This document shows positions 2 to 37,894 of a DNA stretch of 37,894 nucleotides, one piece after another. The stretch spans positions 341 to 38,234 of the forward strand of contig CADANF010000036.1 of the NCBI GenBank assembly GCA_902789175.1. The letters run 5' to 3'. The position numbers and the translations under genes were made by a program. The notes beneath the pieces are model-generated. The model searched no databases and was not told where the DNA came from. It worked only from the letters and a program-made list of their open reading frames with translations. Origin of the DNA: an uncultured Lachnospiraceae bacterium (lineage in GTDB: Bacteria > Bacillota > Clostridia > Lachnospirales > Lachnospiraceae). Position 1 is the stretch's first letter, and each line of letters opens with the position of its first letter.

Positions 2-1270
2 TATTATGCTAAAGATTTAGAAAATGTCGATAATATATATGAATATATAAAAAAGGATTTAGGGAGAAATATAGAATTAGACAGCGACTCGGATGGAATA
101 CCTGATGTTTATGAAGATGGACTTCTTATGTTTAATGGTAAGAGCATAAAGTTGGACAAAAATAATCCCGATACTGACGGAGATGGTCTTTTAGATGGAG
201 AGGAAGTAGAACTTGAATATAGATATTATGTAGATACTACTAAAGTAATGGTTATGGGAGGTTTTAAATCCAATCCACTTAATCCAGATTCTGACGGAGA
301 TGGAGAAGGTGACGCCACAGATCCTACACCTTTAAGATTTCAGCTTAATGAAGAGTTATGTAAGAGAATATGTGAATTGAATTATATATCACGTGAATAT
401 ATCAAATCTAGTTCAGATCTAAATACTAATAATAGTCATATTCGTAAAGAATGCTATGCTGAATGGTATACCTTTATGTTTATTAGACAATTTAATAGTA
501 ATTATATTGGTGAAAATTGGGATAATGCTGCAGGTGCTATAGATTATAATTTTGTTGAATATGTTAAAAACAATAATTATGATTTATATAATTACTTTGA
601 TACGCACGCAGATTATATTGCAGAAAAAACTGGAAAGAAGGGGGATTTATATCACTTTGCAGCAACAATGACAGCATTTTATTATTGGTCAAATTATGAT
701 AATGGTACTGGAGTTATAGAAACAGTAGAATACCAGTTTATGCCGGATGTTATTTTGGATGATTTGGCAGGATGGGCAGGAGACCTTCAAACGGCAATGG
801 TAGATGCTGTATTTGCCGTTGGGAAAAATGCTGATTATAATACCTATAAAGAAGCTATGATAGACTTAATAGCTTGTGAAGATAGAAATAAGGTATATGA
901 GAAATATCCAGAATTAGAAAAAAATAAAGATAAAAACAGTGATATACATTTTAAATTAAATGATTATTATGCAGATATAGACGCTGCAAATTTGATTAAG
1001 TATATGATTACTAATAATTGTTTGGAAGAGGCTTTGGTTGAATATTTTGCCAAAAACTATAAGATTAGGATTACAGAATTTAAAAATGGTTTTACAACAA
1101 AGTGGACTTTTTCAAAATGTGTTGGATTATATACTAGTGAAAAATTTATGGTTTTTAGGTGGCCATTATATGTAGACGACAATAAAAAAGAGGTTCCTAT
1201 TTCTAAAGAATTGTCAGAAGCTGCAAGAGATGCATTTGTAGAATATATATGGGAGAAAGCTGATGAGTAA
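2..1270 (+). CDS. Secreted/surface protein with type-3 (TSP3-like) calcium-binding repeats, 5' end outside window
   Basis: The frame is open from base 2, so the gene starts upstream and 422 codons are visible. An ATG at 128 exists, but a calcium-binding loop lies upstream of it (DSDSDGIPD, codons 27-35), so that ATG is internal. Two further Asp-rich loops follow (NPDTDGDGLLDGEE and NPDSDGDGEGDATDP). The spacing of Asp-x-Asp-x-Asp-Gly is that of bacterial thrombospondin type-3 repeats, which normally form rigid calcium-loaded spacers in exported proteins. The remaining ~340 residues are a globular domain I do not recognise. They contain a conserved-looking HFAATMTAFYY block and a DDLAGWAGDL block, which would suit an enzyme or effector domain. 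The stop overlaps the next start by 8 bases, so the three genes to 2080 are probably one operon. The repeat call is firm. The function of the C-terminal domain is unknown. Confidence 0.8.
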   Translation, partial: YYAKDLENVDNIYEYIKKDLGRNIELDSDSDGIPDVYEDGLLMFNGKSIKLDKNNPDTDGDGLLDGEEVELEYRYYVDTTKVMVMGGFKSNPLNPDSDGDGEGDATDPTPLRFQLNEELCKRICELNYISREYIKSSSDLNTNNSHIRKECYAEWYTFMFIRQFNSNYIGENWDNAAGAIDYNFVEYVKNNNYDLYNYFDTHADYIAEKTGKKGDLYHFAATMTAFYYWSNYDNGTGVIETVEYQFMPDVILDDLAGWAGDLQTAMVDAVFAVGKNADYNTYKEAMIDLIACEDRNKVYEKYPELEKNKDKNSDIHFKLNDYYADIDAANLIKYMITNNCLEEALVEYFAKNYKIRITEFKNGFTTKWTFSKCVGLYTSEKFMVFRWPLYVDDNKKEVPISKELSEAARDAFVEYIWEKADE

Positions 1271-1664
1271 AAAGTTAAAGATTGCATATATTATCGTATT
1301 TTTAGGATGGGTGATTTATTTATTAACTATGAAAATATATGATATGTATGAGAAAAGAGAACCATTAGAGTTGATAGAAGTGTCTTCAGAGAATAAAGAA
1401 TGGGAAATAAGTGTAACTTACGATAAATCTATTTTTTCTAAAAAAGATAAAAATGTACATATAATTATTGAGGGAAAAGATAGAAGTTTTGGATTCGTTA
1501 CAACTGTTAAAAGTAAAAAGAGAGAACTTACAAAAGAAAATTATCGTCTAGAGATAAATGATGAGTTTGTGCGGTTGGAATTGATTGATGAAGGAAAGCA
1601 AAGAGGTCAAGTTTATTCTTTTTATACTGAAGATTATAAAGATGATTTTGAAAAGGAGAAATAA
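1263..1664 (+). CDS. Small membrane-anchored protein, paralogue of the next gene
   Basis: 133 residues with one N-terminal membrane segment (about residues 6-23, IAYIIVFLGWVIYLLTMK), followed by a hydrophilic beta-rich domain presumably outside the membrane. There is no lipobox. It overlaps the stop of the upstream calcium-repeat gene and ends two bases before the next start, so translation is probably coupled. The C-terminal third aligns with the following protein: DEFVRLELIDEG and QVYSFYTEDY match DEYIKLVFINEN and QVYRFYYDDL. The pair therefore looks like a tandem duplication. I do not recognise a family. Position directly after a large secreted protein suggests an accessory or protective role, but that is inference only. 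Confidence 0.75.
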   Translation: MSKKLKIAYIIVFLGWVIYLLTMKIYDMYEKREPLELIEVSSENKEWEISVTYDKSIFSKKDKNVHIIIEGKDRSFGFVTTVKSKKRELTKENYRLEINDEFVRLELIDEGKQRGQVYSFYTEDYKDDFEKEK

Positions 1665-1666
1665 AG

Positions 1667-2080
1667 ATGCTTCCTATAAAATATTTCCATTATTTTGTTA
1701 TTGTTATTTTGAGTTTGCCTTTACTAGGATTAATAATATTCTCCATTTTATATTTTTCTCCCGTTTCATATGATTCGTTGAATGTATGGTTTAAGGAAAA
1801 TATTGATTGTGATAAATATACATTGGAATGTAAAAAAGGCAACGGTGTCAACCCTGATGAATATTTAAGGATATATGATTCGGATGGGGAAGTTTTATAT
1901 GAGATGTCATTTCATCTTAGAAGTAACTATCACCATGGTGTATATACTTATAAAGTAGAACATGAAGATGAATATATAAAATTAGTATTTATAAATGAGA
2001 ATAATGTTATATGTCAGGTATATCGTTTTTATTATGATGATTTAGATGAGTTGGCAAAGGTAAAAGATAAAAATAACTAA
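1667..2080 (+). CDS. Small membrane-anchored protein, paralogue of the preceding gene
   Basis: 137 residues starting at an ATG 8 bases after an AAAAGGAG ribosome site that lies inside the preceding gene's last codons. One strong N-terminal membrane segment (about residues 8-30, rich in V/I/L/F) precedes a hydrophilic domain with ~100 residues and no recognised family. Its last 40 residues mirror those of the preceding gene, including a QVYxFYxxD pattern. It is the last gene of its operon: a long hairpin with a T-run begins 17 bases after the stop. As with its twin, an accessory or immunity-type role next to a secreted protein is possible but unproven. Confidence 0.75.
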   Translation: MLPIKYFHYFVIVILSLPLLGLIIFSILYFSPVSYDSLNVWFKENIDCDKYTLECKKGNGVNPDEYLRIYDSDGEVLYEMSFHLRSNYHHGVYTYKVEHEDEYIKLVFINENNVICQVYRFYYDDLDELAKVKDKNN

Positions 2081-2097
2081 ATCACTAAAATATAAAA

Positions 2098-2174
2098 TAG
2101 ACGCGAAAGAATTCCTCCAAAGGGCATGTTTTAGCCCGCTGGAGGAATTACTTCTCGCGTCTATGCTATTTTTT
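2098..2174 (+). terminator. Large two-part hairpin terminator
   Basis: TAGACGCGA and AATTCCTCCA on the left pair with TGGAGGAATT and TCGCGTCTA on the right. A small inner GGGC/GCCC stem sits between the arms, and TGCTATTTTTTG follows. It ends the operon finishing at 2080. Confidence 0.8.
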
Positions 2175-2310
2175 GCGTCCGTACGTCATCTTGAGCGTCT
2201 TATTTATTTTGGCGTTATTTTAATCTTGAATTTTCACCTTCAAGGTTATATAATTATACAAAAACACGAACAAATGTTCACTGTAATAAGGAGGCCAATA
2301 GAATTCAAAC

Positions 2311-2565
2311 TTGCAGAAAAAGATTACATCGAAGACTTATGTTGATGTTATAGTGCATGTGCGCTATGACGGGATGATTATACCGATGTATATTATCTGG
2401 GAAGATGAAAGAAAGTTGAAGATTGATAAGATTGTAGATAAGAGACCTATAACGGATTTATCCAGAGGGCTTGTGGGTATGGAATATACCTGTATCATAA
2501 ATGGGAAGATAGGGCATTTATATTCCGGAGATTTTAACAGATGGTATGTAGAAATGTTCTATTAA
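2311..2565 (+). CDS. Small conserved-looking protein of unknown function (84 aa), TTG start
   Basis: 84 residues. The frame is closed by a stop at 2299-2301, so the only usable start is the TTG at 2311, 16 bases after a strong AAGGAGG at 2288-2294. That spacing is long, so initiation may be inefficient. The sequence is mixed alpha/beta with several aromatic and basic positions (YVDVIVHVRYDG, IIWEDERKLKIDKI, GLVGMEYTC), and it ends with a conserved-looking RWYVEMF. There is no signal peptide or membrane segment. Proteins of this size and pattern occur in Clostridia as uncharacterised single-domain proteins, but I cannot name a family with confidence. It stands alone between two terminators. 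Confidence 0.65.
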   Translation: MQKKITSKTYVDVIVHVRYDGMIIPMYIIWEDERKLKIDKIVDKRPITDLSRGLVGMEYTCIINGKIGHLYSGDFNRWYVEMFY

Positions 2566-2732
2566 TTGTTGTTAAAATGTGGAGAAACACTAGATTTATA
2601 AAGGATTTCAAGGTTTTTTAATTTCACTTTTTTTACACAGATTAGGAACCTCTTTTTCACATTTGGAGTGTATATTTTAATTATTCCAAGAGGAATAAAA
2701 ACCTTCCCCCACATTTTTTCATACCTTTTAGG

Positions 2733-2760
2733 AGCCGCCAATCTGGCGGCTTCTTCTTTT
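2733..2760 (+). terminator. GC-rich hairpin terminator
   Basis: Perfect stem AGCCGCCA / TGGCGGCT with a three-base loop, followed by TCTTCTTTT. It probably ends transcription from the 84-aa gene 170 bases upstream. The opposite strand also carries A/T-rich flanks, so it could act weakly in both directions. Confidence 0.6.
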
Positions 2761-2875
2761 GGCGAGGCCGACACACCTGAGCCGTCAGGTGAGATGAGCA
2801 AAGACTTGGATGATTATGTAAACTAAAAACGTTATCTGTGGTTTCCGTAATATCAGAAATTTTTATAACAAAAAA

Positions 2876-2968
2876 TGTTGATAAGTTTGTTAATAAGTTG
2901 CGCAATGGGCTATATCATAACGTTTTTGGGGGTGAAAGTTATCAACAAAAACTACAAACTGTTGATAG
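2876..2968. promoter_or_regulatory. Cluster of DnaA-box-like 9-mers upstream of nrdD
   Basis: TGTTGATAA at 2876-2884, TTATCAACA at 2939-2947 and TGTTGATAG at 2960-2968. The first two differ by one base from the DnaA box TTATCCACA (read on opposite strands). The last two also form an 8-bp inverted repeat with a 12-base spacer, so a repressor site or RNA hairpin is an alternative. DnaA control of ribonucleotide reductase genes is known in other bacteria. Here it is only suggested by the motif cluster. Confidence 0.3.
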
Positions 2969-2981
2969 TAAGTTTACGCTA

Positions 2982-2997
2982 ACACAATATCTTGTGT
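2982..2997. promoter_or_regulatory. NrdR box
   Basis: ACACAATATCTTGTGT is a near-perfect palindrome matching the NrdR consensus (acaCwAtATaTwGtgt). It lies 7 bases upstream of the -35 element of nrdD. NrdR boxes usually come in pairs about 31 bases apart. I see no convincing second box at that spacing. Confidence 0.75.
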
Positions 2998-3004
2998 TTT
3001 CTTC

Positions 3005-3033
3005 TTGACTTTGTTTTGACCCGAATATATAAT
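3005..3033 (+). promoter_or_regulatory. Sigma-A-type promoter of nrdD
   Basis: TTGACT (3005-3010), a 17-base spacer and TATAAT (3028-3033). This places transcription start near 3040, about 65 bases before the nrdD start codon. Confidence 0.8.
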
Positions 3034-3105
3034 CCTTAATAGCGAATATGCGCAAAGTATTAAATATAAATTTTGATTTGTAATCCGGGGAGGAACAAGA
3101 AAACC

Positions 3106-15006: not shown

Positions 15007-15567
15007 ATGAAAGAATCAAAGGACTATGACATTTTTTATAAAAAAATAACTTCAAAGTTAAGAAAAAAAGAAGATATAAGCCATACTCTTTTTTTGATAA
15101 ATAAGGGTGTAGAGTTCATTATGTATTTTTCTTATATGATGGTTCTTGTTAATTCATTTTTTTATGAGAAGGGGACATTAAATCCTATTAAAGATCTATG
15201 GAAGATTGAAAATCTAAAAAGTTCAATTTTAACAGCGGCACCATTTGTGATAATTCCAGGTACCGGTTTTGTCCTGCTTACTATCATACGTAGGGCGATA
15301 AATAGAAAGAGGCCTTATGAAAGCTGGGATTTAGACCAGCTTATAAGGAAAGATAAAAAGGGACAGTCAATGCCTAGCAGACATGTTTATTCTGCAGCAG
15401 TTATAGCAATGTGCGTCTTATGTATTGATCCTGTTCTTGGTGTTATCTGTATCATCATAGCAATAATGCTTGCGGTACTTAGAGTTGTAGGGGGAGTTCA
15501 TTATCCAACGGACGTGGTAGTTGGATTTGTTTCTGGCATAGCGACTGGCTTATTGCTCTTTATTTAA
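15007..15567 (+). CDS. PAP2-family membrane phosphatase
   Basis: 186 residues with several membrane segments. It shows the three motifs of the type-2 phosphatidic acid phosphatase superfamily: a Lys/Arg-rich RRAINRKRPYE, then SMPSRHVYSAA (PSRH in place of the common PSGH), then RVVGGVHYPTDVVVG, with the catalytic His and Asp in place. Members dephosphorylate membrane lipid phosphates such as phosphatidate, undecaprenyl diphosphate or phosphatidylglycerophosphate. Which of these applies here cannot be read. GAGGGT precedes the ATG. A weak TTGATA/TAAAAT promoter (16-base spacer) lies at 14943-14970. It is transcribed divergently from the HTH-aminotransferase gene. Confidence 0.85.
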   Translation: MKESKDYDIFYKKITSKLRKKEDISHTLFLINKGVEFIMYFSYMMVLVNSFFYEKGTLNPIKDLWKIENLKSSILTAAPFVIIPGTGFVLLTIIRRAINRKRPYESWDLDQLIRKDKKGQSMPSRHVYSAAVIAMCVLCIDPVLGVICIIIAIMLAVLRVVGGVHYPTDVVVGFVSGIATGLLLFI

Positions 15568-27405: not shown

Positions 27406-28809
27406 ATGAGTAAAAGAATATTGACTATAGATGATGATGCCATTAGCAGGAGAGTACTTAGTGCCTGTCTTAAGAAGGCGGGCGATTATCAGGTGGAAGA
27501 ATTTGATAATGCTATGGCAGCGTTAAAATATTTATCTGAGAATAAAGTTGATCTGGTAATCACTGATATTGAAATGCCTGAAATGGATGGATTTACTTTT
27601 TATGAAAAGATGAGATCCATGGAGTATTTAGATGAGATACCAGTTCTTTTTCTTACGGGGTCTTTTGATGAGAAAAATCAACAGAAAGCTCTTAGTCTTA
27701 GTGCGGCTGGATTTATAAGAAAACCTATTATCCTGCCGGATCTAAAAGCTGTAGTTGAGAATGCATTTAACAGTATTTATATCGAAAATACGAAAGATTC
27801 CATACTTATAATTGATGATAGTTCTATGAATAATAGAATCGCAAAGCATATTTTAGAAAAAAAATATAAGGTCTATTCTGCAACGAGTGGTAAAGAAGGG
27901 CTTAAAATGGCAGAAGATATAGAGCCTTCTCTTATCTTGCTGGATATTCATATGCCTAATATGAATGGATTTGAAGTTATGGATAATCTTAAGAAAAATG
28001 ACAGATTAAAAGATATTCCGGTGGTTTTTTTGACAGCGGATATTGAAAAAAGTTCTGAGGTGGACAGCTTTAAAGTGGGAGCTCAGGATTATATCAGAAA
28101 GCCATTTATAGCTGAAGTAATGATACAGAGAGTGGGAAGAATACTGGAATTAGAGCATCTTAAGAAATATCTTCAGACCGAGGTTGATAAACAGACGAGA
28201 AAAGCTGAAGAAAGAAGAAAGTCTATGGAAAAGATGACAGATCAGATTATTAAAGCCTTAGTTGGCACCATAGATGCAAAGGATAAATATACTAATGGTC
28301 ATTCTACTCGTGTTGCCAGTTATTCAAGAGAAATAGCCCGTCGTGCAGGAAAAGATGAGAAAATGCAGCAAAGCATTTATTATATCGGACTACTTCATGA
28401 TATTGGCAAAATTGGCGTTACTGATGAGATAATAAATAAAAAATCAAAACTTACAGAAGAAGAATATGACATCATAAAGACTCATCCTGTAATAGGAAGT
28501 GAGATCCTTAAAAATATATCGGAAATTCCGGGTATATGGCAGGGGGCAAGATTTCATCATGAAAGATATGATGGAACAGGGTATCCTGACGGATTAAAGG
28601 GAGAAGATATACCAGAAGTGGGAAGGATAATAGGAGTTGCCGATGCTTATGACGCAATGACTTCCAACAGAAGTTACAGGCCATTGCTTCCTCAGAATCT
28701 GGTAAGAGAAGAAATAGAAAATAATATAGGAACTCAATTTGACCCATGTTTCGCTGGTATTATGCTGGAAATGATTGACGAGGATACTGATTTTTCCTTG
28801 CATGAATAG
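27406..28809 (+). CDS. Double response-regulator HD-GYP protein (cyclic-di-GMP phosphodiesterase)
   Basis: 467 residues. There are two receiver domains in tandem, REC1 (1-122) with the acidic pocket IDDD (9-12) and phospho-acceptor Asp54, and REC2 (131-255) with IDDS and Asp180. Both have a conserved Thr and Lys (T84/K106 and T210/K232). A short coiled coil leads into an HD-GYP domain (~283-467) with HDIGK (331-335), HHERYDGTGYP (384-394) and DAYDAMTSNRSYRP. All metal-binding and GYP residues are present, so it should hydrolyse cyclic-di-GMP when phosphorylated. No partner histidine kinase is in the window. CGGAG precedes the ATG. DegV follows 72 bases after its stop. Confidence 0.95.
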   Translation: MSKRILTIDDDAISRRVLSACLKKAGDYQVEEFDNAMAALKYLSENKVDLVITDIEMPEMDGFTFYEKMRSMEYLDEIPVLFLTGSFDEKNQQKALSLSAAGFIRKPIILPDLKAVVENAFNSIYIENTKDSILIIDDSSMNNRIAKHILEKKYKVYSATSGKEGLKMAEDIEPSLILLDIHMPNMNGFEVMDNLKKNDRLKDIPVVFLTADIEKSSEVDSFKVGAQDYIRKPFIAEVMIQRVGRILELEHLKKYLQTEVDKQTRKAEERRKSMEKMTDQIIKALVGTIDAKDKYTNGHSTRVASYSREIARRAGKDEKMQQSIYYIGLLHDIGKIGVTDEIINKKSKLTEEEYDIIKTHPVIGSEILKNISEIPGIWQGARFHHERYDGTGYPDGLKGEDIPEVGRIIGVADAYDAMTSNRSYRPLLPQNLVREEIENNIGTQFDPCFAGIMLEMIDEDTDFSLHE

Positions 28810-28881
28810 GTTTGACATTAAATAATTTCATGATTAATATAGAGAATATACTTAACATTTTAATTAATAAGAGGTTTTATA

Positions 28882-29766
28882 ATGGCAGAATATGTACTGA
28901 GCTGTTGCTCAACTGTTGATCTTACTCCTGAGTATATGGAGAAGAGAGATATTAAATATATATGCTTTAATTATTCGGTAGATGGAGTTTCTTATAAGGA
29001 TGACATGGGAGTGTCAATAAAAACTTCAGAGCTTCATAAGAGAATGCTTGATGGGGCTGATGCCAAGACTTCACAGGTAAGTGTTGGTGAATATGTGGAA
29101 TATTTTACATCATTTTTAAAGGATGGAAAGGATATACTTCACTGTACACTTTCTTCCGGAATATCAGGAACATATAATTCAGCTTGCACAGCTGCAGATA
29201 TTCTTAAGGAACAATTTCCTGACAAGAAGATTTATATAGTGGATTCTCTTGAAGCATCATCGGGCTATGGATTATTTATGGATAAGCTGGCTGATCTTAA
29301 GGAAGAGGGTATGGATATTGATTCATTACTTACTTGGGCTGAAGAGAATAAATTAAATGTTAATCATTGGTTTTTCTCATCAGATCTTACTTTCTTTATA
29401 AGAGGTGGAAGAGTTTCAAAGACAGCGGGAGCAATCGGTAAGGTTCTTAGCATCTGTCCTCTTTTAAATGTAGATTATATGGGAAGACTTATTTCAAGAG
29501 AAAAGATCCGTACAAAGAAAAAAGCCATATTAAGAGCTGCAGAAAAGATGGAAGAACTGGCAGATAATGGCATAGAATATAGCGATAAAGTATTTATTTC
29601 CAATTCTGATCCGGATGGTGCAAAGGCTTTAGCTGACCTTATAGCTGAAAGATTTCCAAAGATTAAAGGAAAAGTGGAAATATTTGATATCGGAGCAACC
29701 ATTGGCTGTCACACAGGCCCTGGTACAGTGGCACTTTTCTTCTGGGGAAAAAAGAGAGAAGACTAG
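28882..29766 (+). CDS. DegV-family fatty-acid-binding protein (FakB-like)
   Basis: 294 residues, full family length. The N-terminal domain has the DegV pattern (STVDLTPEYMEK, then TSQVSVGEY and CTLSSGISGTYNSA), where the serines hold the fatty-acid carboxyl group. The C-terminal domain ends GATIGCHTGPGTVALFF, with the conserved His-Thr-Gly-Pro-Gly that contacts the FakA kinase in characterised homologues. Such proteins present fatty acids for phosphorylation to acyl-phosphate and so feed phospholipid synthesis. It is the first gene of a tight operon: the acyltransferase starts five bases after its stop. That order makes an acyl-donor role likely. No FakA is present in the window. Confidence 0.92.
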   Translation: MAEYVLSCCSTVDLTPEYMEKRDIKYICFNYSVDGVSYKDDMGVSIKTSELHKRMLDGADAKTSQVSVGEYVEYFTSFLKDGKDILHCTLSSGISGTYNSACTAADILKEQFPDKKIYIVDSLEASSGYGLFMDKLADLKEEGMDIDSLLTWAEENKLNVNHWFFSSDLTFFIRGGRVSKTAGAIGKVLSICPLLNVDYMGRLISREKIRTKKKAILRAAEKMEELADNGIEYSDKVFISNSDPDGAKALADLIAERFPKIKGKVEIFDIGATIGCHTGPGTVALFFWGKKRED

Positions 29767-29771
29767 TATCT

Positions 29772-30521
29772 ATGGAAAAGAAGATTTCTCTTAATTATAG
29801 ATTTATTAGAGCGATAACTAAGGCAATTTATCCTCATATAGATGTGGAAGGAATAGAAAATCTTCCTAAGGGACCGGCAATAGTAGTGGGCAATCATTCT
29901 CAGATGCATGGCCCGGTTGCCTGTCAGTTATATTTTCCAGGAAAGAAATATATATGGTGCATTAGTGAGATGATGCATCTTTCAAAAGTACCATCTTATG
30001 CTTATAAGGATTTTTGGAGTAATAAACCTAAGGGAGTAAGATTCTTCTTTAAAATACTTTCTTATATCATAGCTCCAATATCAGTCAGTGTTTTTAATAA
30101 TGCTGATACGATCCCTGTTTATAAGGATAAGAGAGTAGCTATCACATTTAAAGAGTCAGTTAAAAGGCTTAAAGAAGGGGATAGTGTGATAATCTTTCCG
30201 GAATGTTATGATGAACATAATAATATCGTACATGAATTTCAACAAGGATTTGTGGATGTGGCAAAAAGGTATTATAAAGAAACCAGTGAAGAGATACCTT
30301 TTGTGCCACTCTATGTTTGTCCGAAGTTAAAGAAGCTTATCATTGGAAAGCCTGTTTATTTTAATAATGAAAATGATATTCATGAAGAACGAATAAGAAT
30401 TTGTGATTATCTTATGGAGGAAATATCAGAAATGGCTTATATGAAGCCACGTCATAAGGTGGTTCCTTATCCCAATATTAAAAAGAAGGATTATCCTTAT
30501 AATACACGTTTGGTAATTTGA
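29772..30521 (+). CDS. PlsC-like 1-acyl-glycerol-phosphate acyltransferase family protein, divergent motifs
   Basis: 249 residues. Overall it fits the lysophospholipid acyltransferase fold: NLPKGPAIVVGNHSQMHGP in block I, and VIIFPECYDEHNNIVHEFQQGF in block III with FVPLYV following. The canonical NHx4D catalytic pair is altered: His is kept, but the Asp position reads Gly (NHSQMHG). The usual FPEGTR is FPECYD. Either the His acts with another acid, or the specificity is unusual. The C-terminal half is Lys-rich and ends with a PYPNIKKKDYPYNTR segment. It lies five bases after DegV and its stop overlaps the next frame, so it is translationally coupled in a lipid operon. Confidence 0.82.
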   Translation: MEKKISLNYRFIRAITKAIYPHIDVEGIENLPKGPAIVVGNHSQMHGPVACQLYFPGKKYIWCISEMMHLSKVPSYAYKDFWSNKPKGVRFFFKILSYIIAPISVSVFNNADTIPVYKDKRVAITFKESVKRLKEGDSVIIFPECYDEHNNIVHEFQQGFVDVAKRYYKETSEEIPFVPLYVCPKLKKLIIGKPVYFNNENDIHEERIRICDYLMEEISEMAYMKPRHKVVPYPNIKKKDYPYNTRLVI

Positions 30522-30526
30522 AGAAT

Positions 30527-31228
30527 ATGAAAACACCAGTCAGAGATTATAGAAAAGTAAGATTTAATAATATACGTACTCCAGAGTTCTCACATCTTTT
30601 GCTATTGCTTGGATGGGTAGGATATCTTGTAATGTATGCCGTAACTGAAAAAATTATACCGGAAACAGCCTGTCATGTGGTTCATTGCCATCTGGATGAT
30701 ATTATCCCATTTAATGAATATTTTATCATCCTGTATGTTTCATGGTATTTCTTTGTTGTGGGTTCACTTCTATATATGTTGCTCTATGATATTGAGGGCT
30801 TTAAGAAGATGCAGATCTTCATAATAATCACTCAGATCATAGCAGTTATAGTTTATATAGTTTGGCCATCAGTTCAGTATGGAAGGCCGGATGAATTTAT
30901 TCATTCTAATATTTTGACAAAATTAGTTGGATTAATATATTCTGTAGATACGCCTACAGGGGTGTGTCCATCCTTACATGTAGGTTATTCCATTGCGATT
31001 GCATCAGTTTGGGCTAAAAAGAAGGATATTTCAGTTATCTTAAGGATAGTGCTGATTATCTGGGCTGCAGCAATCTGTATTTCTGTTGCATTTGTAAAGC
31101 AGCATTCAGTGCTGGATATATTTGCAGCAATTCCAATGTGTCTCTTTGCAGAGGTATTATTATATTGGAAGGCTTATTGGAAGCCCAAAATAATAAGTGA
31201 GAGAAAGAGGGAAGAAATAAATGGCTAG
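30527..31228 (+). CDS. PAP2-superfamily membrane protein, PAP2_3 (inositol-phosphotransferase-like) branch
   Basis: 233 residues from the ATG at 30527. A TTG at 30518 overlapping the previous stop is an alternative start. Five to six membrane helices are seen. The catalytic motifs are GVCPSLHVGYS (the C-P-S-L-H form found in the Aur1/inositol-phosphorylceramide-synthase-like branch) and VKQHSVLDIFAA, supplying both active-site histidines and Asp. The first Lys/Arg motif is weak, as in that branch. Such enzymes hydrolyse lipid phosphates or transfer a phospho-head group between lipids. Its start is coupled to the acyltransferase and its end overlaps the E2-like gene, so it acts in the same pathway. 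Confidence 0.82.
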   Translation: MKTPVRDYRKVRFNNIRTPEFSHLLLLLGWVGYLVMYAVTEKIIPETACHVVHCHLDDIIPFNEYFIILYVSWYFFVVGSLLYMLLYDIEGFKKMQIFIIITQIIAVIVYIVWPSVQYGRPDEFIHSNILTKLVGLIYSVDTPTGVCPSLHVGYSIAIASVWAKKKDISVILRIVLIIWAAAICISVAFVKQHSVLDIFAAIPMCLFAEVLLYWKAYWKPKIISERKREEING

Positions 31229-32075
31229 AAGATGGGGAGACCGACGGGACGGTACTCTTATCAGAGACTTGGATTCAATGCATTATATAATGCCACTCAT
31301 GTATCCTAATAGATGCGATAATGAAGCTTGTATGAGGATAACCATTAATCTTGCAAAGACAGAGGAGTATATTAAGCAAGTTAATCAGGAAATTGATGGA
31401 CCTAAGATTAATCTATTTCAGGTGATAATAACGGCAGCATTAAAGACTATCAGACTAAGACCTCAGATGAACAGGTTTATCGCAAATAAAAATCTATATC
31501 AGAGAAATAATCTTACTGCAGCATTTACAGTGAAGAAGACTTTTGAAGATGATGGAGAAGAAACACTTGCCAGAATCGTGGCAGAAGATTCGGATACCCT
31601 TAAGACTCTTTGTTCAAAGGTAAATGCTCAGATTGAATTATGTAAGACTTCAGTTGATAAATCTACAGAGAGCATGAATTTTATCCAGAAGCTGCCATTC
31701 AAACATTTTATTGGTGCTATGGCTAGAGTTGCTGATAGACACGGCTGGATGCCAGAGTCAGTGATCGCTTCGGATCCATATCAGTGCTCCATAGTCCTTA
31801 CTAATTTAGGTTCTATCGGACTTAATACCGGATATCATCATATGACAAATTGGGGAACAACTTCGGTTTTTATGATAATAGGAAAAAAGAAGAGAAGACC
31901 TGTGTATGACATGGATGGAAATGTAACCATGAAAAAACAGATAGATCTCTCAATGACGATTGATGAAAGAATTGCAGATGGATATTATTATGCAAGGACG
32001 TTAAAACTCTTAAAGAAGCTCATTGAAAATCCTGAGCTTCTAGAGAAACCAATATCTACAGAAGTAAGCTTTTAA
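31221..32075 (+). CDS. E2/chloramphenicol-acetyltransferase-fold acyltransferase-like protein
   Basis: 284 residues, cytoplasmic, overlapping the previous gene by 8 bases. Most of the length follows the catalytic domain of CoA-dependent acyltransferases (E2 of 2-oxoacid dehydrogenases and chloramphenicol acetyltransferase), including VIITAALKTIRLRPQMNRF, IVLTNLGSIGL and the terminal LSMTIDERIADGYYYA. In E2 and CAT enzymes the last motif is DHRxxDG or HHxxxDG with the catalytic His. Here that His is replaced by Glu (DERIADG). There are no lipoyl or E1/E3-binding domains. Its place at the end of a DegV/PlsC/PAP2 operon suggests it acylates or binds a lipid intermediate, and it may be non-catalytic. 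The reaction is unknown. Confidence 0.8.
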   Translation: MARRWGDRRDGTLIRDLDSMHYIMPLMYPNRCDNEACMRITINLAKTEEYIKQVNQEIDGPKINLFQVIITAALKTIRLRPQMNRFIANKNLYQRNNLTAAFTVKKTFEDDGEETLARIVAEDSDTLKTLCSKVNAQIELCKTSVDKSTESMNFIQKLPFKHFIGAMARVADRHGWMPESVIASDPYQCSIVLTNLGSIGLNTGYHHMTNWGTTSVFMIIGKKKRRPVYDMDGNVTMKKQIDLSMTIDERIADGYYYARTLKLLKKLIENPELLEKPISTEVSF

Positions 32076-32100
32076 TTTAAAACTGGGTAAGTTATAAAGA

Positions 32101-32139
32101 AAAAATGATCTGGAATTAGAATTCCAGATCATTTTTTTC
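32101..32139. terminator. Bidirectional terminator overlapping the end of the DUF1292 gene
   Basis: AAAAATGATCTGGAATT / AATTCCAGATCATTTTT, a 17-bp perfect stem with a two-base loop. It ends the lipid operon. Its right half contains the last codons of the convergent DUF1292 gene. Confidence 0.9.
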
Positions 32140-32421
32140 GCAATAATCATCGAATGCAGCAGCTACAAGTTCGAATTCTTCAGGATCAGTTACTTCCTGG
32201 AGATCAGGATTATCAGCTGTATGAGTTTCATCTTCTACATATCTGTATACCCAGATGTCATCACCTACATCCTCACCCTTATCATTTATAGGGATAAGGA
32301 AGATATAATCATTTTCAGCTACTGTAAGTACTGTGATGATGGCACATTCAACTGGATCTGTTCCATCAAGTTCAACAGTGATAGTAGATGACTGCATTTC
32401 ATTTACTTTATTCTGATTCAT
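32116..32421 (-). CDS. DUF1292 family protein
   Basis: 101 residues, cytoplasmic and very acidic. The pattern ITVELDGTDPVECAIITVLTV, then DYIFLIPINDKGEDVGDDIWVYRY, then DPEEFELVAAAFDDYCEKND matches the DUF1292 (YrzB/UPF0473) family found throughout Firmicutes. Its function is not known. The final seven codons and the stop lie within the convergent terminator stem. AGAGGG precedes the ATG. A TTGAGC-17-TATACT promoter lies 36 bases upstream. It is a single-gene unit. Confidence 0.92.
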   Translation of the reverse strand: MNQNKVNEMQSSTITVELDGTDPVECAIITVLTVAENDYIFLIPINDKGEDVGDDIWVYRYVEDETHTADNPDLQEVTDPEEFELVAAAFDDYCEKNDLEF

Positions 32422-32456
32422 ATTATCCCTCTTAATTAAACAATTAGTATTAATAA

Positions 32457-32485
32457 AGTATAGCAGAAATGGCTTGGATGCTCAA
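32457..32485 (-). promoter_or_regulatory. Promoter of DUF1292 gene
   Basis: On the minus strand: TTGAGC (32485-32480), a 17-base spacer and TATACT (32462-32457). Confidence 0.7.
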
Positions 32486-32655
32486 GATTAGAAAGAAACA
32501 TATTGCTTCTCCCTGACCGTAATTGGTTGCTGTAAAAACAATAACAACTCTAATTGTATAATATACATAAAAATGTTTGCCGAATATGTAGAAAGTGATT
32601 AAATTATATTGATTTTAAAGTTTGACAGTATTAATATCTGATTTGTTCAAAAGTT

Positions 32656-32704: not shown

Positions 32705-32737
32705 GACAAATGTAAACCAAGGAGGATTTTGAAAGGT

Positions 32738-33022
32738 ATGGGACAGATTAGAATTTCACCAGACGAGATGCGTGGAAGAGCATCAGAGTACAGAGCAGAA
32801 GGAGAGAAGTTTATCATTGGAACAATGGCTAACTTACTTGAAAATCTTCAGGGTGAATGGGAAGGTGCAGCCAGCGAGTCATATGCTGCTCGTTATACAG
32901 AACTTGAACCTGGATTTAAACAGGCAAGAGATCTTATTGAAGAGATTGCTGTAGCACTTGAAGATGTAGCTACAAAGATGGAAGAGACAGATAACAGCAT
33001 TTCATCATCTTTCCAGGGCTAG
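32738..33022 (+). CDS. WXG100 family type VII secretion protein (EsxA-like)
   Basis: 94 residues from the ATG at 32738, 12 bases after AAGGAGG. An in-frame TTG at 32729 is only three bases from that site. It is a helical hairpin protein with the central turn GEWEGAASESY (Trp-x-Gly) near residue 43 and a C-terminal helix ending in TKMEETDNSISSSFQG. This is the standard size and shape of substrates/partners of the Gram-positive type VII (ESX/Yuk) secretion system. A strong terminator follows, so it is expressed separately from the toxin genes. No EssC/YukB ATPase or other secretion component is in the window, so the machinery must lie elsewhere. Confidence 0.95.
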   Translation: MGQIRISPDEMRGRASEYRAEGEKFIIGTMANLLENLQGEWEGAASESYAARYTELEPGFKQARDLIEEIAVALEDVATKMEETDNSISSSFQG

Positions 33023-33080: not shown

Positions 33081-33218
33081 TATGGATATTTCAAGGAAAT
33101 ATCCGAAGATAAAGTTTGTAAATAAGTAGGATGTGGGAAGAATTACGAAGAATGATATTATTTAAGATGTGGGGACGTCTTTAATATCAAGTAAAAATCA
33201 TGATAAAGGAAATTGGAT

Positions 33219-33448
33219 ATGGAAAATAAAGTAGAAGTTTTGGATAAATATCTGGCTCTTGGAAGCATTGTACTTGTAAAAGGAAATGTTAAGAAGCTTA
33301 TGATCGTGGCAAGAGGGGTTCTTGCGGGGAAGGAGCCAGAAAAAAGTTATTTGATTACGGAGCAGTTTTATATCCTGAAGGGCTTATGGATGAAAGATTG
33401 ATATTTTTAAATCATAGAGACATTTATAAGGTAGTAGCAGAATATTAA
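33219..33448 (+). pseudogene. DUF4176 family gene, frameshifted
   Basis: The ATG at 33219 follows AAAGGA at 8 bases. The first frame gives the DUF4176 start (LALGSIVLVKG, then KKLMIVARG) but leaves the family near 33350 and stops at 33401. The next frame continues the family exactly: FDYGAVLYPEGLMDERLIF and NHRDIYKVVAEY, stop at 33446. Insertion of one T in AGTTATTTGATTAC (around 33346-33357) would restore a 76-residue protein. DUF4176 genes recur beside LXG and WXG100 genes. An A6 run just upstream could be a slippage site or a sequencing trouble spot, so natural inactivation, error and frameshifting are all open. Confidence 0.8.
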
Positions 33449-33474: not shown

Positions 33475-33897
33475 GTGGTCTGGGACAGTGAAGAAGAACT
33501 GAGAGAAGCCATATCAGATAATCAAAGTATTATAGACTCGAATGATAATAAAGTTAGAGAACTCTGTAAAGAACAGGGCAGATTAGAGTGTGCCAAGAAT
33601 ACAGTCTACAATCATTATTTAACGTATTTGGATGAAATATATTATAAAGACGTATTTGAAGAATATCGCTATGGAGATAAATGGAAGGGAGAAAACTTCA
33701 ACGAATTTGAAAAGGCCATAGATGGAATAATAAATGATTCAGTTTATAAATTAAAAAAAGATCTGGAAACATGTTACTTACAGATGGATGAATATATAGA
33801 AAAAAAACAGGATAAGATTGATGATCTTAACTTGGATTCTTCTATCAGAGAGGGAAGAATAGACAGATATGAAACAGAATTAGCACTTAAGTTTTAA
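33475..33897 (+). CDS. Helical LXG-partner protein (DUF5082/YwqH-like)
   Basis: 140 residues from GTG, with AAGAGGTG upstream. It is almost entirely helical and charged, with an N-terminal coiled coil (EEELREAISDNQSIIDSNDN onward) and a long C-terminal helix of heptad-like pattern ending IREGRIDRYETELALKF. Size, position and pattern fit the DUF5082 group, one of the two small helical proteins commonly encoded just before LXG toxins. In studied systems such proteins bind the LXG domain and are needed for toxin stability or export. Family assignment rests on context more than on motifs. Confidence 0.65.
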   Translation: MVWDSEEELREAISDNQSIIDSNDNKVRELCKEQGRLECAKNTVYNHYLTYLDEIYYKDVFEEYRYGDKWKGENFNEFEKAIDGIINDSVYKLKKDLETCYLQMDEYIEKKQDKIDDLNLDSSIREGRIDRYETELALKF

Positions 33898-33920: not shown

Positions 33921-34202
33921 ATGGGAGAACTAAAATATTCAAAGGACGAATATGATACAAAAATGGGATATCTTGATTATATGAAAGGATATACGATATC
34001 AAATACTAATGAGATAAGTAAACCTGAAACAGCTTCAGCTGAGGCACTTACAGAACTTTTTGATATTTATGAGAAATTATGGGAACTGGTAGGAACTTAT
34101 ACTGAAACATTAGGAAATACTGTAACGTCACTTAAAAATGCTGGTGATTATATTTATGAAACTGACAAGAATATTTCAAATGGAATGGAATATTTAAAAT
34201 AG
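33921..34202 (+). CDS. Small type VII secretion partner protein (TIGR04197/DUF5344-like)
   Basis: 93 residues, helical. An Asn/Ser-rich middle (SNTNEISKPETASAEAL) is followed by a helix with KLWELVGTYTETLGNTVTSLKNAGDYIYETDKNI in segments, ending MEYLK. The C-terminal YxxxD-like pattern (YIYETD) is similar to that of WXG100-type export signals. It is the second small helical gene in front of the LXG toxin, matching the usual order of DUF5082 then TIGR04197-type then LXG. It probably binds the toxin's N-terminal domain for export. The gap to the toxin gene is 43 bases with no terminator. Confidence 0.7.
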   Translation: MGELKYSKDEYDTKMGYLDYMKGYTISNTNEISKPETASAEALTELFDIYEKLWELVGTYTETLGNTVTSLKNAGDYIYETDKNISNGMEYLK

Positions 34203-34245: not shown

Positions 34246-36669
34246 ATGGGGTATAATATAATCCGGTCAGAAATCAATATGACCGCGGCTTCTTGCTTAG
34301 GAAGTGGAAGAGTAATAGAAGATAATCTTTCTAAGATAAGAGAAAGTCTCAATAATCTGATAGAAAATGAAAATTTTACAGGGAATGGCGCTGATGCAAT
34401 AAAGCAGTATCTTTATTTTGTTCATCTTACAGCAATAGATTCTATCATTGTAGCGCTTGAAGAGTTTTATTCTCTTGCAGCTCAGTATGCAGCAGGATTT
34501 TCTGATTATGATTCATTTGATGAGGCTGTCATAAATGAAGATTATCTGACAGAAATAATAGAAAAAATGAAGGCCATGCTTTTATCTATGGAAGAGGCGC
34601 AGAATGATCCATTTAATGCGGAAGATGGTGTTATGGATCTTCTACCTGACAGGATACTAAAGCTTTTATGGGCATATCAGGATCCTTTAGAGAATGAGAA
34701 AACAAAGCTGAAAAATCTTAGAGACGGAATTGCTACATATGATGCTGATTTTAAAGCAAATAAGTTTCAGAATATAAGGGAATTATTAGCTGAATCTGAA
34801 AGGCTTGTAAATCTGATCAAGGAAAAAGAAATTGTAACTTTTGAAGGAATGAATCCTGCTCATTATTTTACTGAGGAACAGTATGAAAAGATTTTGGGTG
34901 ATATAGGTGATTCCTATACTTATTTACTGGAAAATAAGGATAAAATTCAAAATGATGTACAGTTTGTTTCTGGTTACGTAGAAAAGGTCAGAGAGAGAGA
35001 AAAAAAGGAAGCCAAAAAGCAAAGGATAGAAAAGGGCATAATTCTTATTTTATCAGGAACGATAGCAATCGGGTCTGTTGTTCTTACAGTAGGAACATCA
35101 GGACCGCTTTTTGTCGAGTGTGTATGGACAGCAGGTGCGACATATATAGCTGCAGATTCTACGGCAAAGAGTATTGAAGGACTTCAGGAAATCTATTATG
35201 GATTAAATGATGACTTTGAAACACCATCTTTCAATGGTGTCAGGGATGGTATTTTTAAAGGTAATCAGAAATATTATGATACAGCAAATCTTATAATATA
35301 TTCCGGCTTTCAGTGTACAGGATCATATAAAAATATATATACAGCTGGAAGTAAAGCCTTAGAGAATGGTGCAAGTGTTGAGTTAGCAAAGATTACCGCC
35401 AGTGCCGCCAGTGGAGAAGAAATGTTTAAGGCAGGAGTTGGAAGCTTAGCTGATTTTACTGGTGAAAAGCTTGCTAAGTCTTGTAGTGATGATATGCTGG
35501 CGCAATTTGTTATACAGACAACATTTAGTTTTGGCGTTCAAAAGGGAACAGATAAGGCTGCAAAGAGCTTTGGAAAAGGCTTTAGCAATAAGATGTCAAA
35601 ATATGTAGGAAAAGCTGGAACAACTTCTACAATAAGCGGTCCTAAGATTGGTGATGCCAATATAGATATGCCAGAAACTTTCAAGGTTAAAAAGCCGGAA
35701 GTTCATTCAGAGAGCCCAATGTTTGGTGAAGACTGGAATAGTTTTTTTAGAGAAAAGTATGGCGAAGGGAATGTAACATGGGAGAGTGCGCCGGAAGGAC
35801 ATATAGATAATCCTAATACAATAACATATAAGACATTTGAAAAAGAAACATTTTCATCTGGATTTGATTATGAATCAATGTATGAACATCAGTATCTGGA
35901 TGATTTCTCTTATGAGGAACATTTTACTGATGGGAAGATTAATGAAATAAATAAAAAAGACGTTTCAAAAATCAATGATCAGGATATTTCATATGCCAGC
36001 TTTGAGGGAGAATATGAACCGATAAAATTAAAGTCAAAAGATTATTATCCTGAAAGCCCAATGTCTGGTGAAGACTGGAATAAGTATTTTCAAGATAAAT
36101 ACGGTTCTAAGAATGTAAGTTGGGAAACAGGTAGTGTTGGCAAAGAAACGGTCGATGTAATTCGAATAGGAAAGAATGATTTAGATGTATTGAGAAAAAA
36201 ATTAGGGGTACCGGAAATAGATACTATTGCGATAGATAAAACGGATGTAAAAGGTTTGGAAAATAATATATTTGAAGGGGAATCTCCAAATGTAAGAAAA
36301 GAGGCTGGATTGCCAGACTTAGACGAAATATGGAAAGATAGAAATATAAAATATCCAGGAAATAATCCTCTTTTTTCAAGACATGCTGAGGAAGTTGTTG
36401 TTAATCAGTTTGATAAAGCAGTAATGGATGCTGGAATAAATCCAACAGATGTAAAAGGTGTTCTGAAAATACATCAGTCAAATCCTACGGGTGTGTGTCG
36501 AAAATGTTATCAAGGATTAGCAAATAATAAAGTTAAACCAGGCATATTAAAGCAATTAAGTCTTAAATATCCAAATTTGCGTATTGAAATAACATCTGAA
36601 ATTGTACCAGGTGTAGAGGTGACAGGAAGAAGTGAGTTGATTATTCAAAATGGTCAATATGTAAAATAA
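34246..36669 (+). CDS. LXG-type polymorphic toxin with deaminase-fold C-terminal domain
   Basis: 807 residues. Residues 1-215 form a helical LXG-like export domain (FTGNGADAIKQYLYFVHL is its hallmark). Residues ~264-305 are strongly hydrophobic (ILILSGTIAIGSVVLTVG), and ~305-480 form the conserved body of this toxin group. A pre-toxin motif occurs twice, ESPMFGEDWNSFFREKYG (~489) and ESPMSGEDWNKYFQDKYG (~603). The tip (~690-807) has SRHAEEVV (His713, Glu715) and PTGVCRKCYQG (Cys751, Cys754), the zinc-binding and catalytic layout of nucleotide/nucleic-acid deaminases. Tips of this kind usually deaminate cytosine or adenine bases in target cells. The exact subfamily (YwqJ-like or another) cannot be fixed by eye. 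It is followed by a putative immunity gene and by a partial copy of its own body. Confidence 0.9.
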   Translation: MGYNIIRSEINMTAASCLGSGRVIEDNLSKIRESLNNLIENENFTGNGADAIKQYLYFVHLTAIDSIIVALEEFYSLAAQYAAGFSDYDSFDEAVINEDYLTEIIEKMKAMLLSMEEAQNDPFNAEDGVMDLLPDRILKLLWAYQDPLENEKTKLKNLRDGIATYDADFKANKFQNIRELLAESERLVNLIKEKEIVTFEGMNPAHYFTEEQYEKILGDIGDSYTYLLENKDKIQNDVQFVSGYVEKVREREKKEAKKQRIEKGIILILSGTIAIGSVVLTVGTSGPLFVECVWTAGATYIAADSTAKSIEGLQEIYYGLNDDFETPSFNGVRDGIFKGNQKYYDTANLIIYSGFQCTGSYKNIYTAGSKALENGASVELAKITASAASGEEMFKAGVGSLADFTGEKLAKSCSDDMLAQFVIQTTFSFGVQKGTDKAAKSFGKGFSNKMSKYVGKAGTTSTISGPKIGDANIDMPETFKVKKPEVHSESPMFGEDWNSFFREKYGEGNVTWESAPEGHIDNPNTITYKTFEKETFSSGFDYESMYEHQYLDDFSYEEHFTDGKINEINKKDVSKINDQDISYASFEGEYEPIKLKSKDYYPESPMSGEDWNKYFQDKYGSKNVSWETGSVGKETVDVIRIGKNDLDVLRKKLGVPEIDTIAIDKTDVKGLENNIFEGESPNVRKEAGLPDLDEIWKDRNIKYPGNNPLFSRHAEEVVVNQFDKAVMDAGINPTDVKGVLKIHQSNPTGVCRKCYQGLANNKVKPGILKQLSLKYPNLRIEITSEIVPGVEVTGRSELIIQNGQYVK

Positions 36670-36700
36670 ATGTTTTGTAATATGATTTAGGAGGAAATAC

Positions 36701-37102
36701 ATGAAGTTGCTTGAATTGACAACTGAGCAGAAATGTAGTTTCTGTATAAAAATTGTAGATAAGGACGCTTGTGATTATGTTGAAAGAGCTTTAGTGTTAG
36801 CTAAACAATGGATGAATAAACATACTAACATCGCTTATGAATTATATGACTTAATAGATAATGAAGAATATGGATTTACTATTTATCAAGAATCAGAAGA
36901 AGATGAAGATATGATAGCCCTTTGGAATTGTATCATTGATTCATTTGCATTTATATGTAGAAAAGCATATGAAGAACAAGGTACAAAATACTATCCAGAG
37001 CCTATTGAACTTGTAGATGACAAAACATTAATTCATTTAGTTAATTCTTTTCTTAAATGTAGCGATATGGATCTTGATGACTTAGAGATTATAATACCTT
37101 GA
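36701..37102 (+). CDS. Putative immunity protein for the deaminase toxin
   Basis: 133 residues, cytoplasmic, acidic and mostly helical, with AGGAGG before the ATG and only 31 bases after the toxin stop. Position and size are those of a cognate immunity protein. The pattern YELYDLIDNEEYGFTIYQES followed by ALWNCIIDSFAFICRKAY resembles Imm6-type immunity proteins, some of which accompany deaminase toxins, but that family call is tentative. Expected role: binding the toxin tip to protect the producing cell and its kin. It is followed by the degenerate toxin copy rather than by another intact gene. Confidence 0.7.
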   Translation: MKLLELTTEQKCSFCIKIVDKDACDYVERALVLAKQWMNKHTNIAYELYDLIDNEEYGFTIYQESEEDEDMIALWNCIIDSFAFICRKAYEEQGTKYYPEPIELVDDKTLIHLVNSFLKCSDMDLDDLEIIIP

Positions 37103-37170
37103 TTCTTCTATGATTATCAAAAAGAGTTTTCCTTGTTTGATCGATTTTAGAACAGGTCTTGAATTATCAG

Positions 37171-37894
37171 TTTATAATTGATGAGACTGTCATAAATGAA
37201 GATCTGTCAGAAACAATAGAAAAAATGAAGGATAGAAAAGGGAATAATTCTCATTTTAACAGGCTCGATGTCAATCGGTTCTATTATTGCTACAGTAGGA
37301 ACATCGGGTCCTTTTATAGCTGAGTTGGCATGGACAGCAGGTGCTACATATATAGGTGCAGATTCTACGGCGAAGACCATTGAAGGAATTCAGGAAATAT
37401 ATTATGGCGTAAATAATGATTTTGAAACACAGTCTTTCAATGGAGTTAGGGATGGCCTTTTTCGTGGTAATCAGAAATATTATGATTTAGCAAATCTGAT
37501 CATATATTCCGGTTTTACGTGTACTTGTTCATATAAAAACATATATACAGCTGGAACTGAAGCCTTAAAGAATGGTGGAAGTGTTGAGTTAGCAAAAATT
37601 GGTGCTTGCGGAGAAGAAGTGTTTAAAACAACAGTTGGAACCGCAGCTGATTTTGCTGGTGAAAAAATTGCACAGTCCTGTAGCGATGATATGCTGGCGC
37701 AATTTGTTATTCAGACAACGTTTAGTTTTGGCGTTCAAAAGGGAACAGACAAGGCGGCAAAGAGCTTTGGCGCAGGATTCAGCAATAAGATGTCAAAATA
37801 TGTAGGAAAGGCTGGAACAACTTCTACAATAAGCGGTCCTAAGATTGGTGATGCCAATATAGATATGCCAGAAACTTTCAAGGTTAAAGAGCCG
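37171..37894 (+). pseudogene. Orphan, degenerate second copy of the LXG toxin body (runs off the window)
   Basis: Bases 37171-37228 match toxin bases near 34514-34570 (VINED..EIIEKMK region). They then join directly to the equivalent of 35026, a deletion of ~452 bases at a shared AAGG. 452 is not a multiple of three, so the frame changes and a TGA (37226-37228) falls just before the second part. From 37229 the frame is open for 222 codons to the edge and matches toxin residues 260-486, ending with a stretch of about 78 identical bases (to 37889). There is no LXG domain, ribosome site or proper start. It looks like a silent donor cassette whose toxin tip should lie beyond the window. Confidence 0.85.

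Follow-up and report, generated by a model that had tools for sequence, protein, structure and literature searches.

Orphan toxin/immunity modules are clearly already known from several polymorphic toxin systems (Rhs, CDI, MafB, and the enterococcal LXG toxins), and the sections of the cited papers that deal with them describe the following arrangements. In Salmonella Typhimurium LT2, the orphan rhs-CT/rhsI module is silent, lacks start and export signals, and has 522 bp in common with the main gene at 95% identity, and the recombination that fuses the main gene to the orphan tip has been demonstrated in evolved cells (PMC3967940). The maf islands of Neisseria hold silent mafB-CT cassettes without a start codon, which are followed by immunity genes and lie behind a full toxin gene (PMC4287609); switching experiments on CdiA in meningococcus are in print, as cited in the same paper. 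For polymorphic toxins at survey level, a single recombination at the 3' end has been proposed to replace the tip and the immunity gene together (PMC3482391), and recombination among T7SS immunity genes is reported for Staphylococcus aureus (PMC9484751). Among LXG toxins, Enterococcus faecalis OG1RF holds the orphan modules OG1RF_11111, OG1RF_11113, and OG1RF_11123, two of which match part of the full toxin at more than 75% in their 5' ends, and whose homologues elsewhere are full-length LXG proteins (PMC7790226).

The window, that is, the whole stretch of 37,894 bases analysed here (bases 341-38234 of contig C36 of an uncultured Lachnospiraceae bacterium), appears to hold the beginning of such an orphan (silent) cassette at positions 37178-37894, in a polymorphic toxin locus of the LXG type that would be served by a type VIIb secretion system. 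To this reading, taken as a whole, we assign a probability of roughly 0.78. The locus starts with a WXG100 gene and continues with small partner-like genes, the gene of an LXG toxin of 807 residues, and an Imm6 gene, after which a headless second body extends to the contig end. Its features are listed below, where L023 and L044 are the loci of the related genomes UBA3772 (G406) and G410, respectively.

32729-33022, + strand: WXG100 (ESAT-6-like) gene, first in the LXG locus (Pfam WXG100, 1.8e-15; NCBIfam TIGR03930, 5.5e-16; both above cut-off).
33475-33897, + strand: YwqH-like small partner-like gene (E 0.013, below the Pfam cut-off; gene order the same in L023).
33921-34202, + strand: DUF5344-like small partner-like gene (E 0.05, below the Pfam cut-off; counterparts in L023 and L044).
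34246-36669, + strand: the expressible copy, a complete LXG toxin gene running from the start codon through LXG head, body, and linker to the tip (807-residue ORF; Pfam LXG).
35026-35697, + strand: toxin body block repeated in the silent copy (repeat search, alignments).
36151-36669, + strand: tip of the expressed toxin (in G315, a genome of another genus, a similar tip is found with an Imm6 gene and a different backbone).
36701-37102, + strand: Imm6-family immunity gene (Pfam Imm6, 3.2e-17, above cut-off).
37178-37231, + strand: the silent copy's left remnant, counterpart of 34517-34573 within the toxin gene (repeat search, homology search, alignment).
37228-37231, + strand: AAGG at the joint of a 452-base deletion (repeat search, alignment).
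37232-37894, + strand: silent headless toxin body, in frame and stop-free to the contig end (ORF list, alignments, codon comparison).
37811-37888, + strand: 78-base run shared without mismatch with the expressed copy, immediately ahead of the tip junction (alignment, shuffle test).

The expressible copy is assigned to the LXG toxins by its LXG domain (PF04740, residues 25-189 of the 807; E 1.9e-14, 54.5 bits vs. a cut-off of 26.5), the WXG100 gene upstream, and the Imm6 gene downstream, all three above cut-off, while the two other partners stay below it. Its tip matched nothing in Pfam, a search of the whole toxin in NCBIfam returned no family for the tip, no convincing match was obtained in the PDB (best E 0.23), and a single-sequence fold of the tip (mean pLDDT 35.6) is useless as a model. 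By eye, the tip holds HAE and CxxC motifs, which we take to resemble those of deaminase-fold toxins. Among the genomes searched, the only recurrence of this tip together with an Imm6 gene is in G315, from another genus, where the backbone differs; identity is 76% over 171 residues for the tip and 39% for the immunity protein. In that genome (L043:1-350 and 1587-3103), pieces of the unrelated backbone carrying the window-like tip and Imm6 are repeated beyond a transposase-like ORF, as seen by eye. With respect to UBA3772, the toxin consists of a constant head (88-97% identity, 34246-34845) and body/linker (81-93%), followed by a variable tip, all six tips compared being unlike each other (tblastn, E 1e-4). 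Between the WXG100 and the partner genes of the window, a small gene at 33213-33401 is apparently frameshift-shortened when compared by eye with the corresponding genes of L023 and L044.

The genome to which the window belongs (G000) comprises 78 contigs and 2.75 Mb, with a completeness of 99.64%. Counting this genome in both cases, relatives of the toxin were found in six of the 61 genomes of the genus (E 1e-10) and in four of 397 across the family (E 1e-20), G315 being detected by its tip only. A working export machine is only putative in the window's genome, where no more than the last 164 residues of EssC are encoded, at the left edge of contig C49 (G000:C49:9-500). Two other readings of this edge were rejected: C49:3-509 is the EssC C-terminus and no immunity gene, and EssC, of which this fragment is present, is not absent from the genome. 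Contig C33 ends just after a WXG100 gene (G000:C33:40765-41688), matching the left flank of the EssC locus of C49, and comparison with G406:C9 indicates that a secretion core of ~12 kb is missing between C33 and C49. EssC is full in UBA3772 and split over two contigs in G410. Far from the toxin locus, the left edge of the window (2-1270) encodes the final part of a protein whose TSP3-like repeats score below the Pfam cut-off, and a dispersed repeat of ~40-165 bases lies at ~2087-2153 (G000:C36:2427-2493). This repeat has at least 28 matches in the window's genome (28 of 38 rows), a count based on 40 of 184 candidates, and more copies may exist.

As in orphan modules, the segment 37178-37894 sits directly behind a full toxin/immunity pair (34246-36669 and 36701-37102), and it is a copy of the toxin body that lacks both the LXG head and the start codon. 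The stretch 37171-37894 matches the toxin body of its own genome with an E-value of 1.3e-225 (85% over query positions 50-724), and a separate piece of 57 bases matches it at 89% (E 4.6e-14). The left part (37178-37231) aligns to 34517-34573 with a single 3-base gap, and the right part (37228/37232-37894) to 35022/35026-35697 with a 9-base in-frame gap near 35396. The offsets of both parts are 2658 and 2206, respectively, and therefore 452 bases are missing, a number that is not a multiple of three. The preliminary description of this DNA, which had proposed a second toxin body directly behind the immunity gene without start codon or export domain, as well as two parts joined at AAGG across a frame-shifting deletion of 452 bases, is borne out by the homology, by the reduction of the LXG region to a 54-base remnant, and by the difference between the offsets. 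Its end points were accurate almost to the base, the homology starting at 37178 instead of 37171 and the counterpart ending at 35697 instead of 35702. It had also placed about 78 identical bases near the right end, and the longest identical run between the silent and the expressed body spans exactly 78 bases (37811-37888). In total, both bodies differ by 91 mismatches over 663 aligned sites; when these mismatches were shuffled over the sites, a run of at least 78 bases arose in 25 of 50,000 shuffles, and the mismatches are skewed leftward vs. expectation (p 0.00024).

The right part is open in the toxin frame up to the contig end, with no stops in the 220 codons compared, and the two stops of the silent copy are both located inside the left remnant. 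A Pfam scan of 37268-37894 returned no domain, the LXG region being represented just by the short left remnant. Reading in frame, no start codon precedes an internal ATG of the body at 37268, which is a potential start. A pattern scan of 36600-37894 yielded four promoter-like sites, fewer than the 5.6 obtained in shuffles, and one terminator-like site vs. 0.4, from which nothing is claimed. The tip of the silent copy is not readable from the window, because the right end of the window coincides with the physical end of C36 (38234 bases).

A row of headless body-tip units, the arrangement expected of donors, is present in Lachnospiraceae bacterium UBA3772 (L023, DFFQ01000154.1), where it can be read unbroken on one contig.

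Copy 1, L023:10001-12361: full toxin, then a small gene of no immunity family.
Copy 2, from 13186: headless body, EndoU-like tip (3e-4, below cut-off), CdiI_4-family immunity gene (1.2e-10).
Copy 3, joined at 15215: headless body, TNT tip (3.4e-7), gene weakly like Imm33 (0.018, below cut-off).
Copy 4, 17268/17395-18700: headless body, tip without a family match, SUKH-1 gene (2.1e-6).
Array end: WHH remnant (2.6e-18), PoNi-like gene (2.7e-4, below cut-off), small closing gene at 20220.

All three headless bodies are followed by a different tip and a small gene, which belongs to an immunity family above cut-off in two of the three, and the tips of units 2-4 and the genes behind them are all open. 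Copy 4 has a head deletion of its own (488 bases by offset, with three bases shared at the joint, by eye). The left part of unit 3 (L023:14757-15214) shares 94% identity with an LXG toxin encoded elsewhere in UBA3772 (L050:3108-3565), which makes this silent unit a chimera of two LXG loci. The chromosomal site of the array differs from that of the window's array. Among the loci surveyed in G000, UBA3772, G410, G411, and G421 (the last one by BLAST only, and with the loci of G402, G106, and G224 left out), UBA3772 alone has several headless units on one contig. A conserved gene of ~250 residues closes LXG loci in the genus (L023:20220-20981, L044:5862-6611, L046:4434-5207, and L047:545-1306); it gives weak zinc-ribbon matches in both copies scanned, and a fragment of its 5' end also lies within the UBA3772 array (L023:13090-13161). 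Downstream of this closing gene in G410, L044:5399-5850 is a relic in which a copy of the upstream leader of the toxin is fused to body and linker pieces, a further headless copy with a different deletion.

The open small genes behind the three headless units of UBA3772, two of them in immunity families above cut-off, would also be expected if the units were kept for their immunity genes, as a protection against kin that use the displaced toxins, with the bodies hitch-hiking and recombining unselected. Orphan immunity genes are on record in T7SS loci (in the pertinent sections of PMC9484751 and PMC10327511), which suits this alternative. However, the tips are open as well, and not just the genes that follow them, and we consider an immunity store a serious possibility that falls somewhat short of even odds. 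By sequence alone, it is inseparable from the orphan cassette proposed here, and both can hold.

Eight copies of the body were aligned, and a mosaic test was applied to five, and then to six, with enough overlap, the copies on C62 and C21 (two other contigs of the window's genome, described below) being too short. Across five copies, 627 of the 1378 pairs formed by 53 informative sites are incompatible, and the incompatibility of neighbouring sites is 14 vs. a permutation mean of 113.7 (minimum 72 in 20,000; p ~5e-5); across six copies, the corresponding values are 421 of 861 pairs for 42 sites, and 20 vs. 95.4 for neighbours. Over 35281-35487, the silent body of the window (type B) groups with the expressed body of UBA3772, and the expressed body of the window (type A) groups with the silent UBA3772 copies 3 and 4, and from 35362 also with copy 2. 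These groupings indicate a role reversal, in that the type used by the window's toxin is mostly a silent one in UBA3772, and vice versa. Over 35620-35662, UBA3772 copies 1 and 4 group against the remaining copies, and all four combinations of two body alleles and two junction alleles are present. Given these four combinations and the low incompatibility of neighbouring sites, the copies have therefore recombined; on this comparative evidence, the mosaic test establishes that expressed and silent body segments have been reshuffled by recombination between units.

Local identities point in the same direction. In 60-base windows over 35026-35505, the silent copy is 93.3-100% identical to the expressed toxin of UBA3772, vs. 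74.5-91.7% to the expressed toxin of its own genome. UBA3772 copy 3 is nearer to the type-B bodies at 35146-35205 (98.3% and 96.7%) than to the expressed body of the window (90.0%), and is of type A afterwards. Between the expressed toxins of both genomes, the head (34246-34845) is 88-97% identical, the body core (34966-35445) 81-86%, and the junction and linker (35446-36138) 85-93%. The body core is less alike than the regions on both sides, and thus the middle was replaced in one of the lineages.

The rise in similarity toward the right end, from which the preliminary description had proposed recombination or gene conversion, is real, and the divergence along the copy is not uniform, but a smooth gene-conversion gradient has to be given up. 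The stretch 35626-35685 is matched at 100% by two of the four UBA3772 body copies, namely 2 and 3, but not by 1 and 4, which argues for a step-like mosaic, and the identical junction stretch is also found in C62 and C21 as far as both reach. The rise appears to be the last step of this mosaic, with one junction allele being widespread. Thus, recombination between copies is upheld by the mosaic test, whereas the idea that conversion inside the own genome keeps the junction matched was too strong, since the stretch is shared with UBA3772 copies 2 and 3. Selection on the junction alone was also rejected as the cause of the identity, as the two alleles at the junction, X and Y, diverge from each other by 13-17% within 35626-35685.

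All four silent bodies tested (the window copy and UBA3772 copies 2-4) are free of stops in the codons compared. The differences between copies 2 and 3 of UBA3772 lean to the synonymous side (8 synonymous vs. 7 non-synonymous, p 0.006); the values are 10.5 vs. 13.5 between copies 3 and 4 (p 0.018), 22.5 vs. 27.5 between the window copy and UBA3772 copy 3 (p 0.0003), and 27 vs. 34 between the window copy and UBA3772 copy 4 (p 5.5e-5). This synonymous bias fits a recent or repeated use of the bodies, and selection before the silencing, or recombination itself, can also explain it. A true cassette switching, in which expressed and silent bodies would swap often enough to stay stop-free and synonymous-biased, with exchange even between LXG loci, seems doubtful to us. 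The exchange of tips with the expressed gene, previously proposed for this locus, was not seen: the six tips behind this body type are all different, with none shared between the arrays, no tip was found in both an expressed and a silent role among the genomes searched, and no actual transfer of a tip was caught. The silent units may act as tip donors; the body mosaics could also stem from inter-strain transfer followed by loss.

Beyond the end of C36, contigs C62 and C21 of the same genome both repeat the final 85 bases of the window at their starts, and agree with each other over 99 bases before diverging. In C62 (3309 bases), the linker continues out of frame with the tip that follows, a nuclease-like tip in an ORF of 207 residues (Colicin-DNase 3e-5, just above the Pfam cut-off; WHH 1.9e-5, just below). 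Behind it lie an immunity gene (SUKH_6, 1.6e-14), a transposase gene with inverted ends, and the start of the small gene that also closes the UBA3772 array. Relatives of this tip were found in just two of the 394 other genomes searched, with 31-40% identity. C21 (36444 bases) holds a truncated or broken linker, no tip, and then ordinary chromosomal genes. The different tip and immunity gene predicted to the right of the silent body are present on C62, one of two candidate continuations, and not on C21. Both copies are plainly damaged, and the C62 unit is partly decayed, with its linker out of frame and a transposase gene behind the immunity gene.

The flanks of the locus help to place these contigs. 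In UBA3772, the counterparts of the left flank of the window (27802-32505, 89%) and of C21 from base 325 (99%) are separated by ~90 bases of a single contig, which identifies C21 as the flank to the right of the window's locus. At this site (G406:C95:8473-8563), UBA3772 has no LXG array between the flanks, its own array being elsewhere, and the last ~65 of the ~90 bases match the end of the closing gene as found in G410. In G410, the contig of the left flank continues into a WXG100 gene, and that of the right flank opens with the tail of a gene resembling the PoNi-like gene of UBA3772 (below cut-off), ahead of the small closing gene. From the layout of the flanks in both genomes, it follows that the array of the window's genome lies between C36 and C21. 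The possible orders are C36-C62-(missing piece)-C21, to which we lean slightly, or a direct passage from C36 into C21, C62 then belonging elsewhere. Of the 78 contigs, 12 small ones were sampled, none of them shorter than 2022 bases, so a short piece between contigs may well have been dropped. When the right end of the UBA3772 array was searched in the window's genome, 125 bases were found on C62, and small pieces on C6 and C49. The window copy may have no tip at all, C21 being the alternative continuation.

Several of these features would also fit a mere pseudogene in decay, a toxin copy born of tandem duplication, now without its head and under deletion, and whose likeness at the right end is a useless leftover. 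The 452-base deletion with its frameshift, the truncated linker without a tip on C21, beside the right flank, the out-of-frame C62 copy with a transposase gene after it, and the corresponding site in UBA3772, where ~65 bases of the closing gene remain and an array is lacking, all speak for decay. Against this, the mosaic and the role reversal show exchange after the duplication, the silent bodies are stop-free in four of four cases over the codons compared, and UBA3772 units 2-4 have open tips with open genes behind them, so that mere decay strikes us as rather unlikely. An assembly artefact, in which the second body would consist of mis-joined reads from the expressed copy or another locus, is highly improbable even though the contig ends in the repeat and two other contigs start with 99 bases in common. 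The silent copy differs from the expressed one by 8-26% per 60-base window over 35026-35505 and has a body allele that also occurs in a second genome, its joint with the immunity gene is hundreds of bases away from the contig end, and the same architecture is found on one UBA3772 contig.

The orphan cassette, which we regard as the best explanation, may have originated as follows. A tandem duplication or a displacement of the whole toxin gene would create a downstream unit, which would then lose its head through a short-homology deletion. Toxin/immunity units displaced in this way behind the expressed toxin would retain a stretch of the body that recombines with the expressed copy and with one another. 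The shared body and junction would thus serve as the crossover region through which the expressed head acquires a silent tip together with the matching immunity gene. As an alternative outcome, a deletion between the direct repeats would lose the silent tip and immunity gene.

Such a locus offers a base-level view of how LXG toxins could be renewed in Lachnospiraceae, with a single head, a variety of tips, and body segments exchanged between headless copies and the expressed gene, and the role reversal between two related genomes would amount to a natural experiment on the return of orphan modules to use. The literature search for such LXG loci in Lachnospiraceae found none, and the papers retrieved on LXG toxins and gene conversion, judged by title, include none on such an exchange. 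Compared to the systems introduced above, as far as the cited sections describe them, the window copy is similar to the LT2 rhs orphan in being a silent, start-less fragment that shares a stretch with the main gene (PMC3967940). However, the carrier here is an LXG and not an Rhs protein, and past recombination is deduced here from comparison of copies. The silent cassettes of mafB-CT are alike in lacking a start codon, but differ in toxin backbone and secretion route (PMC4287609). The scheme proposed for standalone toxin-immunity cassettes (PMC3482391) is the same, although that is a survey-level model, whereas here it is a concrete locus with body mosaics. The orphans of E. faecalis OG1RF are likewise headless fragments downstream of a full LXG toxin, with 5' ends that match part of it (PMC7790226). 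Unlike those orphans, the body alleles described here appear to be reshuffled between two genomes with their roles reversed, the host belongs to the Lachnospiraceae, and the tip of the window copy would lie beyond the contig end. What seems to be new with respect to the known orphan modules is, therefore, another host group and an exchange between expressed and silent bodies that can be followed base by base.
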